A DNA stretch of 64,000 bases, taken from the NCBI GenBank assembly GCA_016125495.1, contig WGLQ01000005.1, positions 1-64,000 of the forward strand. The letters are read 5' to 3'. The notes beneath the pieces were generated by a model that saw only the letters and a list, made by a program, of their open reading frames with translations, was not told the DNA's origin and did not search any database. Made by a program: the position numbers and the translations under genes. Positions within the stretch are counted from its first letter, which is position 1. Every line of letters starts with the position of its first letter. Shown piece by piece: positions 21,375 through 26,693 of the stretch. The DNA comes from Hyphomicrobiales bacterium. GTDB lineage: Bacteria > Pseudomonadota > Alphaproteobacteria > Rhizobiales > RI-29.

Positions 21375-22993
<1,619 letters not shown>

Positions 22994-23003
22994 GGGGCGC
23001 ACC

Positions 23004-23951
23004 ATGAAGTCCGATCAGGCCGTCTCCGTCAAGGTCAAGACCACGGTACGTGGTCTTGACGTGCTCTCGACCGTCTATGCCTTTGCCATGGCGTTGGGCC
23101 TGACGCAGGTCTTCCTCGGATCGCAGGCCTATCTCACGAAACTGCTCTCAGGCACCGCGCCGGTAGCCGACGAGAAGTCGATTTTGGTGTTCTTTCTCTT
23201 CGCCAATATCACGCTTCTGGGCCTGCGATTCTTTTGGGTGCCTAGGAACCTCCAAAGCCTCGTTATTGCAGCAGCCCGTGCTCATGCGATCGCCCCGGCA
23301 GCCGACCGGGCCAAGGGTGATCTGTCGAATGCGTCCATCGCATTCCATCTGGTTGTGATATTTCTGCATGGCACCCTTTTTTATATCATTTGCGCAGAGT
23401 TTGAGTACGTCACTTTTGCGTTGTCATCAAACCTGCCGCTGAGTTCTTCGGTTTTTCTGGGGTATGTCGTCATGCATGCGGCATTGCTGCTGATGAATGC
23501 AGCATGGATTGCGATCGCGCGTCGGCAGGAGGTGCGACTTGAGCTGCATGTCAACAACATGGTGGCGGCGAACGGACCGTCGGCTGGAAACGTCTGGTGG
23601 CGGAACAATCTCGTGGCCGGGTTGATCGCCCTTGCCCCATTCTCGATCGTCGGCACATGCCGCTCGTCGGCCACTGAATGCGTCCAGCAATCGATCGGGG
23701 GGCCACTCACGATCATGGATACGCTGCCCACATCACCACAGGTCATGGCCACGATATACTACGATCTGGTTGGGTTTCTTGAAAGACTCGACATGACCTC
23801 TACGCATTTTCCGGTGTACTGGGTTCTCATCGTGTTCTTTGCGAATAGTGCATATGACCTCCTTAATGCCGGACGGTTTTATGTTTTCTTCGAGGATGTC
23901 GAGTGGGAAGATGTGCTCGAGTCCAGCAAGGATCGGGGGCCGATAACATAG
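23004..23951 (+). CDS. Unknown multi-pass membrane protein (cassette gene 1)
   Basis: 315 residues with about six predicted membrane helices (near 20-40, 60-80, 110-130, 150-172, 200-218 and 268-286), among them IAFHLVVIFLHGTLFYIICA and FPVYWVLIVFFANSAYDLL. The final 25 residues are acidic (FFEDVEWEDVLESSKDRG). No family was recognised. A ggtgagggg ribosome site precedes the ATG. Codon usage and base composition are visibly AT-richer than in the aminotransferase before it. The next gene starts at the base after its stop, so the two are certainly one transcript. Codons 11-19 encode a perfect hairpin in the DNA. Confidence 0.72.
   Translation: MKSDQAVSVKVKTTVRGLDVLSTVYAFAMALGLTQVFLGSQAYLTKLLSGTAPVADEKSILVFFLFANITLLGLRFFWVPRNLQSLVIAAARAHAIAPAADRAKGDLSNASIAFHLVVIFLHGTLFYIICAEFEYVTFALSSNLPLSSSVFLGYVVMHAALLLMNAAWIAIARRQEVRLELHVNNMVAANGPSAGNVWWRNNLVAGLIALAPFSIVGTCRSSATECVQQSIGGPLTIMDTLPTSPQVMATIYYDLVGFLERLDMTSTHFPVYWVLIVFFANSAYDLLNAGRFYVFFEDVEWEDVLESSKDRGPIT
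23034..23060 (+). other. Perfect 12-bp inverted repeat inside the start of cassette gene 1
   Basis: GTCAAGACCACG (23034-23045) and CGTGGTCTTGAC (23049-23060) are exact complements separated by GTA. The element sits 30 bases after the ATG. In mRNA it would form a very stable hairpin able to affect early elongation; as DNA it could be a dyad operator. It also encodes residues, so neutral origin is possible. Confidence 0.6.
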
Positions 23952-24800
23952 ATGCATGTTCCGGAAATCATGTATCGGCAGGCTACAGACATTGTCCTAG
24001 GCGCCCTCTGTTTGGGATTGTTCTTTTTTGCCTTGTTGAGTGGGTTGCCGCGGGCCGAGGATGATGTCGCGCTGCGAATTGCCGCTCCGCTCTTGCCGCC
24101 CCAGATGGACCTCGACGGGCGGGGCCGGGAAGCTGACATCGTACAAGCCGCATTCGAGGCCGCCGGACTGAACCGGCGTATCGAGTTCCATATCATGCCT
24201 TTTACTCGGCACTGGAAGTCGTACGCAAGTGATCAGCGGTTAGATGCGGTGATCACTGTGCCAAAGGAAGTGACCCTCAAGGGCGTTCGATCAGAACCCT
24301 ATATCTACTACCAGAATGGTGTGTTCTACGATCGCTCATCAATACCTGGAGGACTGGGCAACAACCCGATCGGCGCGCTGGAGCTCAGTCGGATCGTTAC
24401 TTTCGCTGGCTCGACCGCGGTGTTGAAAGAACTGGGCCCTCTGAGTGAGCGGGCGCCGATGTATATTGAACGTGCCGATCAGTTGAGCCATTCTGTGGTG
24501 TTGGCGAGCGGATTCGTTGATGTCGTCATTGCTGATGAGTTGATATTCGATTTTTACACCAGGCAGGTCGGCGCGAGCGTAGCGGGAACCGTTGATGCTC
24601 CGCCGTCGCGCGAGCTCGTATTTGATCCGATATTTTGCCCCACTCCCTATCAGGTTGTGTTTAGAAGTTTCGAGTTGAGAGAGTTGTTCAATAGTGGGCT
24701 CTCTGTCATCCAGAAGAATGGCACGCTTGAGAAAATAAATAGTGATTACCACGCGTCGAGAGGGGTCCAAAGGCTGGACAGGGAGGGGTGTCTCAAGTGA
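23952..24800 (+). CDS. Periplasmic solute-binding-like protein (SBP family 3 type), orphan (cassette gene 2)
   Basis: 282 residues: an N-terminal hydrophobic segment (about 13-32, IVLGALCLGLFFFALLSGLP), then a fold resembling family-3 solute-binding proteins: LRIAAPLLPPQMDLDGRG, EADIVQAAFEAAGLNRRIEF, RLDAVITVPKEVT and IVTFAGSTAVLKELG, ending with a helix like the usual LEKINSDYHAS tail. This matches the pattern of amino-acid-type binding proteins, but there is no ABC permease or ATPase nearby. It lies between two membrane proteins with zero-gap and overlapping junctions, so a receptor or sensor role is as likely as transport. Confidence 0.68.
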   Translation: MHVPEIMYRQATDIVLGALCLGLFFFALLSGLPRAEDDVALRIAAPLLPPQMDLDGRGREADIVQAAFEAAGLNRRIEFHIMPFTRHWKSYASDQRLDAVITVPKEVTLKGVRSEPYIYYQNGVFYDRSSIPGGLGNNPIGALELSRIVTFAGSTAVLKELGPLSERAPMYIERADQLSHSVVLASGFVDVVIADELIFDFYTRQVGASVAGTVDAPPSRELVFDPIFCPTPYQVVFRSFELRELFNSGLSVIQKNGTLEKINSDYHASRGVQRLDREGCLK

Positions 24801-25213
24801 GCGGGATCTTTGTTAACTACTGCCTGTTGTTAGTGGCGATTCTGCTGCCAATGCTGGTGTTCAGCTCAGCGAGCGTGCCGGCATTTGTGCTTAGTGTCGC
24901 GTCCTTTGTAGCCGTTGGTTGCCTTGTTGGCGTTGCTCTGCGGCTGACTGTGCACGCGTCCGAGTCGCGGGGGGAGTTGATTGATCGTCATGCGCGGCTT
25001 CAGAAAGTGGTTCTGCTTTCGCTGGTCGTGGGCGGCGTTGCGGGATCCCTGCGCATGTTTTCATACTACGAGCAGTTTCAGCTGCGCTTCGGGGTGGAAG
25101 TACCGCTTGTCGTGATTGGGATTTTGGCCTGGGTTGTGAGCGTTGCAATATCGGTTGCGGGCTTCGTGTCGACGAGTTGGAATTTGTTTGGGAGTTTGCG
25201 CCGTTCGGACTGA
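24797..25213 (+). CDS. Unknown four-helix membrane protein (cassette gene 3)
   Basis: 138 residues with four predicted helices (YCLLLVAILLPMLVFSSASV, FVLSVASFVAVGCLVGVALR, KVVLLSLVVGGVAGSLRMF, PLVVIGILAWVVSVAISVAG) and almost no soluble part. The GTG at 24797 overlaps the previous stop (GTGA) and has an agggaggg site nine bases upstream; an earlier GTG at 24788 touches that site and is less likely. No family recognised. It ends the cassette; the next gene is on the opposite strand. Confidence 0.65.
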   Translation: MSGIFVNYCLLLVAILLPMLVFSSASVPAFVLSVASFVAVGCLVGVALRLTVHASESRGELIDRHARLQKVVLLSLVVGGVAGSLRMFSYYEQFQLRFGVEVPLVVIGILAWVVSVAISVAGFVSTSWNLFGSLRRSD

Positions 25214-25358
25214 AGCCAGGGGCGACGGGTGAGCCGATCGGGCTTTTCCGGGCGCAGGTGTTTGCAACCCGCTTTCGTGTGGCCTTCATCGCGCAATACC
25301 AGTGTGGCGGCGAATTGTGGCCGGCGTTCCGAGTAGGACGTGGAAAAGTTCCCACCCC

Positions 25359-26639
25359 CTACATGTCCCGCACCACCCTGACGCCGATACCGTTGTCGGC
25401 GGTTTTCTCGTCGACTTCGCGGCGGGCGGCGGAGCGCAGGTCGGCGGCGTCCGAATACCAGGCGCCGCCCTTCACGATGCGCGTCGGGCAGGTGTAGCCG
25501 ACGCTGAGGGCATTGCCGTTCTGCGGGGCGAGCGACATCGGATCGTACCAGCAGTCCTCGACCCATTCCGCGACGTTGCCGTGCATGTCGAGGACGTCGA
25601 AGGAATTCGGGCCGTAGGAGCCGACGCCGCGCGAGCCGGGGGCGATGCCGAGTTCGGCGCGCGAGGCAAAATGGGCCGAAGTGTTCAACAGCTCGGGGCC
25701 GGGCGCATAGGCGGTCTCGGAGCCGGCGCGGGCCGCATACTCCCACTCGGACGCCGAGGGCAGTCGGTAGGCGCGACCGGTGCGCTCGCTGAGCCAGGCG
25801 ACGTAGTGCTTGGCATCCAGCCGCGAAAGGCAGACAGCCGGGTGGCTCGGGGTCTGGAGGTAGCCCGGCTCGGTCACGTCGACAGCCGAGATGGAGGCGT
25901 CGCCCGAACGGCATTCCTTGCTCGGAACGTAGCCCGTCGCGGTCATGAAGGCCTGGTACTGAGCGAGCGTGATCTCCGTTCTCGAGATCGCGAAGGGCTT
26001 CTTGAAGGTGATCGCGAGCTGCGGGCCCTCATAGGGCTGGCGAGCCGGTTCGTGCTCGGGAGAGCCGAGCTGGACGGTACCGGGCGGGAGCACCACCATT
26101 TCCGGGCAGACGTCGCAATCGGTCAGGCGCTGGCCGATCACGCGCGGGTCGATCTCTGTCGGCTTGTCGCGGTAGGTGAAGGTCGTGTCGCCCTGCGGGA
26201 GGCCGCCCTGGCCACCGTTGCCGGGGGCCGGAGCCGGAGCAGCACCGCCGCCACCACCACCGCCTGCGCCCCCGCCCGCGCCGCCACCGCCACCACCGCC
26301 GCCACCGGACTGGTTGGCCGGGCCACCGCCGCCGCCGCCGCCACCCGCGCCGCCGTTCTGGGCCTGCTCGGCCGGCTTCTGGTTGGCGGCGACCTGGACG
26401 GGCGTCCAATCATAGGGGTCGTAGGTGAAGATGAGACCGGCAATGAAGCCGACGAACATAAGACCCAGAACGCCGACCGAGGCCTTGGGATATTTCTTCA
26501 GGGTGCCGGTCTCGAGGCCGAGTAGGACGGCTCCCATGATCACGAAAAAGCCGATCCCGGCAAAGCTCCAGAACAGCATGCGTGCATCCCACCCGGCTGC
26601 CCACTCCGGCCATGGCTGGCCGGGCGGCTTGGTCGTCAT
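25359..26639 (-). CDS. Membrane-anchored SUMF1/FGE-fold protein lacking the FGE cysteines
   Basis: 426 residues. Two N-terminal helices (FWSFAGIGFFVIMGAVLLGL and VGVLGLMFVGFIAGLIFTY) are followed by a linker of nearly 50 residues composed mostly of glycine, then a full formylglycine-generating-enzyme-type domain (MVVLPPGTVQLGSPEHEP, EITLAQYQAFMTATGYVP, YRLPSASEWEYAARAG, MHGNVAEWVEDCWYD, IVKGGAWYSDAADLRSAARR). In true FGE the last block carries the catalytic cysteine pair; here it has none, so sulfatase activation is unlikely despite two sulfatases in the window. Non-enzymatic or other SUMF1 roles are possible. ATG 26639 is preferred over GTG 26657; neither has a clear SD. Confidence 0.8.
   Translation of the reverse strand: MTTKPPGQPWPEWAAGWDARMLFWSFAGIGFFVIMGAVLLGLETGTLKKYPKASVGVLGLMFVGFIAGLIFTYDPYDWTPVQVAANQKPAEQAQNGGAGGGGGGGGPANQSGGGGGGGGGAGGGAGGGGGGGAAPAPAPGNGGQGGLPQGDTTFTYRDKPTEIDPRVIGQRLTDCDVCPEMVVLPPGTVQLGSPEHEPARQPYEGPQLAITFKKPFAISRTEITLAQYQAFMTATGYVPSKECRSGDASISAVDVTEPGYLQTPSHPAVCLSRLDAKHYVAWLSERTGRAYRLPSASEWEYAARAGSETAYAPGPELLNTSAHFASRAELGIAPGSRGVGSYGPNSFDVLDMHGNVAEWVEDCWYDPMSLAPQNGNALSVGYTCPTRIVKGGAWYSDAADLRSAARREVDEKTADNGIGVRVVRDM
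26242..26355 (-). repeat. Low-complexity glycine-linker tract
   Basis: A run of GGN codons (read on the minus strand), interrupted by a few Ala, Pro, Asn and Ser codons, encodes the flexible poly-Gly linker of the SUMF1-fold protein. Such GGC/GGT tracts change length easily by slippage, so the linker length may vary between strains. Confidence 0.85.
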
Positions 26640-26693
26640 CGGGGGGCAGGATGGCACGAGGCGGTAACCATTCGGTTTCCAGCGTGCAGATCG

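Follow-up and report, generated by a model that had tools for sequence, protein, structure and literature searches.

A rare, apparently undescribed three-gene module coding for a solute-binding protein and two membrane proteins of unrecognised family in alphaproteobacteria

A conserved gene triplet

Three adjacent genes, hereafter A, B and C, apparently form a real, rare and so far undescribed module, which probably encodes a membrane system for small-molecule uptake or sensing; no description of such a triplet was found in the open-access literature. They were identified in the window, i.e. the whole 64 kb stretch of Hyphomicrobiales DNA that was analysed, and the same A-B-C order was found in two distantly related alphaproteobacterial metagenome-assembled genomes (MAGs), at unrelated loci (L013/L010 and L014). 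This recurrence, which had been predicted in the preliminary description, provides strong comparative evidence that the three genes constitute a functional unit, the case being stronger for A-B than for C.

Gene organisation and composition

Gene A (23004..23951, + strand, ATG start at 23004) codes for a protein of 315 aa with about six predicted transmembrane (TM) segments, gene B (23952..24800, + strand, ATG start at 23952) for a 282-aa protein assigned below to the SBP_bac_3 superfamily and carrying an N-terminal TM segment (residues ~14-32), and gene C (24797..25213, + strand, GTG start at 24797, with an alternative in-frame GTG start at 24788) for a protein of 138 aa with four predicted TM segments. 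No nucleotide separates the stop codon of A from the ATG of B, while B and C overlap by four nucleotides (GTGA). The ORF calls are exactly those first described, and the coding status and order of the genes are backed by the two homologous triplets. A, B and C are presumably carried by one transcript, which may also include, through read-through, the aspartate-aminotransferase-type gene located upstream (21788..22993, + strand), since its stop codon lies 10 nt from the start of A on the same strand; this gene is a conserved housekeeping gene outside the module.

A sigma-70-type promoter pattern, which tells little for an alphaproteobacterium, had no match in positions 22500-25700. Within the first codons of A, a perfect 12-bp inverted repeat with a 3-nt loop (GTCAAGACCACG-GTA-CGTGGTCTTGAC, 23034..23060, no strand assigned) could be an operator, an attenuator or a chance occurrence; it is devoid of a T-run, and the surrounding region folds no better than shuffled sequences.

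Concerning base composition, the cassette is the 2.2 kb with the lowest GC content in the window (0.55 vs. 0.66), in agreement with the AT-richness reported earlier. The GC contents of A, B and C are 0.551, 0.545 and 0.564, respectively, and their GC3 values 0.67, 0.63 and 0.66 (about 0.65 for the cassette), vs. a GC of 0.662 and a GC3 of 0.886 for the aminotransferase gene. Further downstream, on the opposite strand (25359-26657), an ORF resembling, by eye, proteins of the formylglycine-generating-enzyme/sulfatase-modifying-factor type displays an N-terminal TM segment and a long Gly-rich linker.

Recurrence of the triplet

One of the two other triplets is found in a Hyphomicrobiales MAG (G349, whose contig is identical to that of L013), with an A-B-C order identical to that of the window. 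The other, in L014, was picked up by A alone, yet genes for B and a 4-TM C follow directly behind A. Searches of 397 genomes of the same order detected B in four, among them that of the window, and A in two, that of the window and G349. When 84,980 species were scanned with an alignment of A alone, the L013 locus and L014 were the sole matches, bearing in mind that the scan relied on two short peptide patterns and that divergent members would be missed.

With respect to the window proteins, A is 34-35% identical in L013 and 30% in L014, and B 38-40% and 30-32%, respectively, the range depending on the alignment. C is the most divergent of the three (~22% identity in L013); that of L014 shows no significant similarity to the window C (hhalign E 0.32), and its assignment is based on its position, its length of 132 aa and its four predicted TM segments. 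At all three loci, an NTGA (ATGA or GTGA) overlap joins B and C, the A-B spacing is 0, +63 and -4 nt, and the flanking genes are wholly different among the three loci.

Protein B, a probable membrane-anchored binding protein

The preliminary description had presented the middle protein as a family-3-like solute-binding protein (SBP) with an N-terminal membrane segment, and both profile comparison and hydropathy agree with this. The Pfam model SBP_bac_3 (PF00497) scored 19.1 bits against B, i.e. under its gathering cut-off of 26.4, and 17.3-24.7 bits, or no match, against the homologues of B. A profile built from seven sequences of the B family, however, matched the solved amino-acid SBPs AncQR (4zv1; E 9.4e-10, positions 55-260) and 2o1m (E 1.3e-5). 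Because this match runs along most of the domain, B can be placed, on profile grounds, in the SBP_bac_3 superfamily. The fold was judged by this match since the AlphaFold model of B, based on three sequences, was too poor for the purpose (pLDDT 45.6); a Foldseek search with that model gave a weak list made up mostly of amino-acid SBPs and of the ligand domains of glutamate receptors, none of them significant. As for the layout of GluR0-type ionotropic receptors, it was not observed: B aligns continuously with soluble SBPs, with no inserted TM pair.

In the amino-acid binders of SBP_bac_3, the Arg of a TxxR motif holds the alpha-carboxylate of the ligand. As read off the alignment, the corresponding AncQR residue faces a Leu in the B-family consensus and a Val in the window B, and this replacement by an aliphatic residue makes an ordinary alpha-amino acid, bound in the usual pose, an unlikely ligand. 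B displays the motifs PFxRHW and TVP, and RHW, TVP and NG are invariant in seven close members, solo and triplet ones together. A lobe-2 Asp, otherwise conserved, is a Glu in the B of L014.

Two features set the triplet B proteins apart from the solo relatives, i.e. those encoded elsewhere than in a triplet. The cysteine pair C229/C280 (window numbering) is present in all three triplet B proteins and absent from the eight solo relatives that were compared; a different pair is found in five of these. By eye, the N-terminal hydrophobic helix of the triplet proteins shows no obvious signal-peptidase site, whereas the solo relatives with an intact N-terminus mostly have cleavable signals (e.g. VAHA-DE, PASA-DQ). 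The triplet B proteins would thus be anchored in the membrane by an uncleaved N-terminal helix, and this anchoring, together with their private cysteine pair, suggests that they are adapted to a complex with A and C. In the B tree, support was lacking both for a group of the triplet proteins and for their separation (57 and 43), so this tree does not by itself establish that the trio arose once.

Membrane proteins A and C

A and C had been described as membrane proteins of unrecognised families with about six and four helices. Hydropathy agrees, with six TM segments in A, one N-terminal segment in B and four in C, and the possibility raised at that time, that either A or C would match a known, unrelated family, did not materialise: no Pfam or NCBIfam model passes its cut-off, and scans of PHROGs and PADLOC gave no convincing match. 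In the window A, 15 Lys and Arg residues lie in inner loops vs. 3 in outer loops, which places both termini inside. C has short loops and a positive inner loop, and the positive-inside patterns of A, B and C recur in the homologues. A and C have no soluble signalling domain.

The motifs of A include VYAFxMALGL, LGxRFFWVPRNL, WxxNNL and NSxxDL, as well as a conserved periplasmic TCxxxAxxC. Conserved motifs are found where TM2, TM5 and TM6 end on the cytoplasmic side, and the longest conserved ones (RFFWVPRNL, WxxNNL and a C-terminal EW) lie on the predicted cytoplasmic face. The AlphaFold model of A (pLDDT 62.7, pTM 0.65) had no Foldseek match at E<=0.001. VIA-align matches to helical bundles and GPCRs (Z up to 13) were flagged as common for helical proteins, and nothing was concluded from them.

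Distribution and possible transfer

The searches for A covered about 1,350 distinct genomes (the samples overlap and genomes were counted by their handles). A was not found elsewhere in a class sample of 385 genomes, was absent from 29 other genomes in the family of G349, and had no further match in the order of the L014 host, for which 298 additional genomes were searched. When 349 genomes sampled across the phylum were searched with a profile of A, the matches at E ~0.003 in five genomes were taken as chance because they are short and some contain stops. With three instances in total, each carrier is a singleton among its sampled relatives. Plasmids, phages and viral contigs gave no match to A, and a phage or plasmid origin of the triplet was rejected on this basis.

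The L013 triplet is AT-richer than the host region (GC 0.38-0.45 vs. 0.56), while that of L014 matches its host (0.64-0.67 vs. 0.65-0.68). In L014, a tRNA-Gly (CCC) gene lies 59 nt downstream of C (L014:10176-10308); tRNA genes are a common kind of integration site. No integrase was seen near this triplet. In none of 29 same-order genomes does the aminotransferase locus have, within ~1.5 kb, any of the three genes or the one that follows the cassette in the window. Synteny at this locus is therefore not conserved and the insertion point of the cassette cannot be placed.

Sporadic transfer is the simplest account of this distribution. The earlier proposal of acquisition by transfer is in line with the sporadic distribution and with the low GC in two of the three hosts, but the third copy, in L014, is at host GC, and the searches yielded neither an empty site nor an integrase.

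Comparison with known systems

Two ATPase-independent transporter families that depend on an SBP are well described, TRAP and TTT. Like the triplet, TRAP (DctPQM) and TTT (TctCBA) combine in one cluster an SBP and two membrane proteins, one of which is small, with 4 TM, and poorly conserved, with no ATPase. In these families, the large membrane subunit is the better conserved and the small one poorly so (PMC5812351), a contrast also seen between A (30-35% identity) and C (~22%). Their large subunit (DctM/TctA), however, has ~12 TM, whereas A has about six, matches no family and shows no similarity to DctM or TctA; C is a 4-TM protein that matches no DctQ model. The SBP differs as well, being of the DctP or TctC type in TRAP and TTT, while B is SBP_bac_3-like and apparently membrane-anchored. 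A TRAP_fused match in one homologue (E 0.02, 13.5 bits vs. a cut-off of 320.65) is sub-threshold and was not taken as evidence.

As for ABC importers, the absence of an ABC permease or ATPase gene next to the cassette, mentioned in the preliminary description, was borne out, and it extends to all three triplets. The polar amino-acid ABC binding proteins (PF00497; AncQR 4zv1) are matched by the B family along most of the domain (E 9e-10), but B stays under the Pfam gathering score, has no TxxR Arg and is encoded without permease or ATPase genes.

In Corynebacterium, a sensor role has been proposed for an SBP_bac_3-type protein and a protein with 4 TM that are not accompanied by an ABC transporter: GlnX, whose four TM segments come with two periplasmic domains of ~155 aa, would work with GlnH and pknG (PMC9769921). 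The actinobacterial GlnX-GlnH-PknG system resembles the triplet in that a membrane-associated SBP_bac_3-class protein is encoded with a 4-TM protein and no ABC transporter. In contrast to GlnX, C (138 aa) has short loops and no large periplasmic domains, and the triplet has no kinase gene alongside but includes an additional 6-TM protein. Partner genes of the TRAP, TTT or GlnX kind are absent.

Possible function

By analogy, the parts list, i.e. an SBP, a better-conserved membrane subunit and a poorly conserved 4-TM one, with no ATPase, signalling domain or shared regulator, resembles the TRAP/TTT design, and this is why uptake is favoured. A, B and C may associate as parts of one inner-membrane complex, and that this complex is a compact, ATPase-independent and SBP-dependent uptake system is our tentative preference. 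B would be the periplasmic solute-binding domain, tethered by its uncleaved N-terminal helix, with A (6 TM) and C (4 TM) as its dedicated membrane partners; it would capture a small ligand other than a standard alpha-amino acid and deliver it to a pathway built chiefly from A, which C would assist. Transport itself and the class of ligand are deduced from these features. Counting against this reading are the 6 rather than 12 TM of A and the absence of a transporter to which it could be connected by sequence or fold, the cytoplasmic-face motifs of A, which would also fit the docking of a cytosolic partner, i.e. signalling, the small number of known instances (three) and the absence of significant similarity in the C of L014.

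The closest alternative, which we consider possible though less probable, uptake being somewhat more likely, is a sensor: as proposed for GlnH-GlnX-PknG, the tethered B would bind a periplasmic ligand and change the conformation of A/C, thereby signalling to a cytoplasmic partner encoded elsewhere. Besides the Corynebacterium precedent (PMC9769921), the cytoplasmic position predicted for the best-conserved motifs of A, the tethering of B, which suits a 1:1 receptor, and the siaBC-type and response-regulator genes adjoining solo B relatives in Azospirillum speak for such a role. However, no kinase, cyclase or regulator is common to the three neighbourhoods, C is devoid of a periplasmic domain of the GlnX kind, and two polytopic proteins exceed a sensor's needs.

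It is unlikely that B has turned its SBP fold to a non-binding role, as a scaffold or chaperone that helps to assemble or protect A/C or another envelope complex. The replaced carboxylate-binding Arg and the Glu at the lobe-2 Asp position in L014 would fit such a re-use, and SBP-like proteins with such roles exist, among them MxaJ, which has a maturation role and is a weak match of the B-family profile; but RHW and TVP, in the cleft region, are invariant in seven close members, which suggests that binding is retained. A role as mobile accessory cargo, perhaps in phage defence or competition instead of nutrient handling, is very improbable. The singleton distribution, the AT-richness in two of three hosts and the tRNA-Gly gene beside the L014 copy speak for it; against it stand the lack of a convincing PADLOC match, of recognised defence, integrase or phage genes in the three neighbourhoods, and of any match in phages or viral contigs.

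A recurrent triplet combining an SBP with two membrane proteins of unknown family would be a candidate for an architecture distinct from TRAP and TTT, or for a receptor of a new type. With some reserve, we consider that the triplet (6-TM, 4-TM and tethered SBP, no ATPase) may represent an undescribed class of SBP-dependent membrane system; it would then be either a minimal tripartite secondary transporter of a third kind, alongside TRAP and TTT, or a novel ligand-gated receptor. The module is rare, and the evidence for its mechanism indirect.

Solo relatives of protein B

Solo relatives of B were found in two genomes of the same order and in Azospirillum (loci L006, L007, L011, L012 and L059). 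These 'transporter substrate-binding domain-containing' proteins share with B a domain of ~30-40% identity and the PFxRHW, TVP and QNG motifs, but, unlike the triplet proteins, they are secreted, have another cysteine pair and stand without A or C. The frequent occurrence of B without the membrane genes had been put forward earlier as an argument against a three-part system. This argument applies only in part: relatives of B do stand alone, but those are secreted forms that lack the C229/C280 pair. The two forms offer a natural contrast between one binding domain solo and secreted, and the same domain tethered with partners; the cysteine signature separates them, which is directly testable.

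On Azospirillum plasmids (L006, L007 and L059), the solo relative occupies a fixed place between a cluster coding for a SpoIIE-type phosphatase, SiaB and SiaC, and a response regulator, which suggests a link between this solo form and signalling. More distant solo relatives, in Pseudoalteromonas (L057 and L058), are also found at a fixed place, between pqiAB and thioesterase/dnaK genes.
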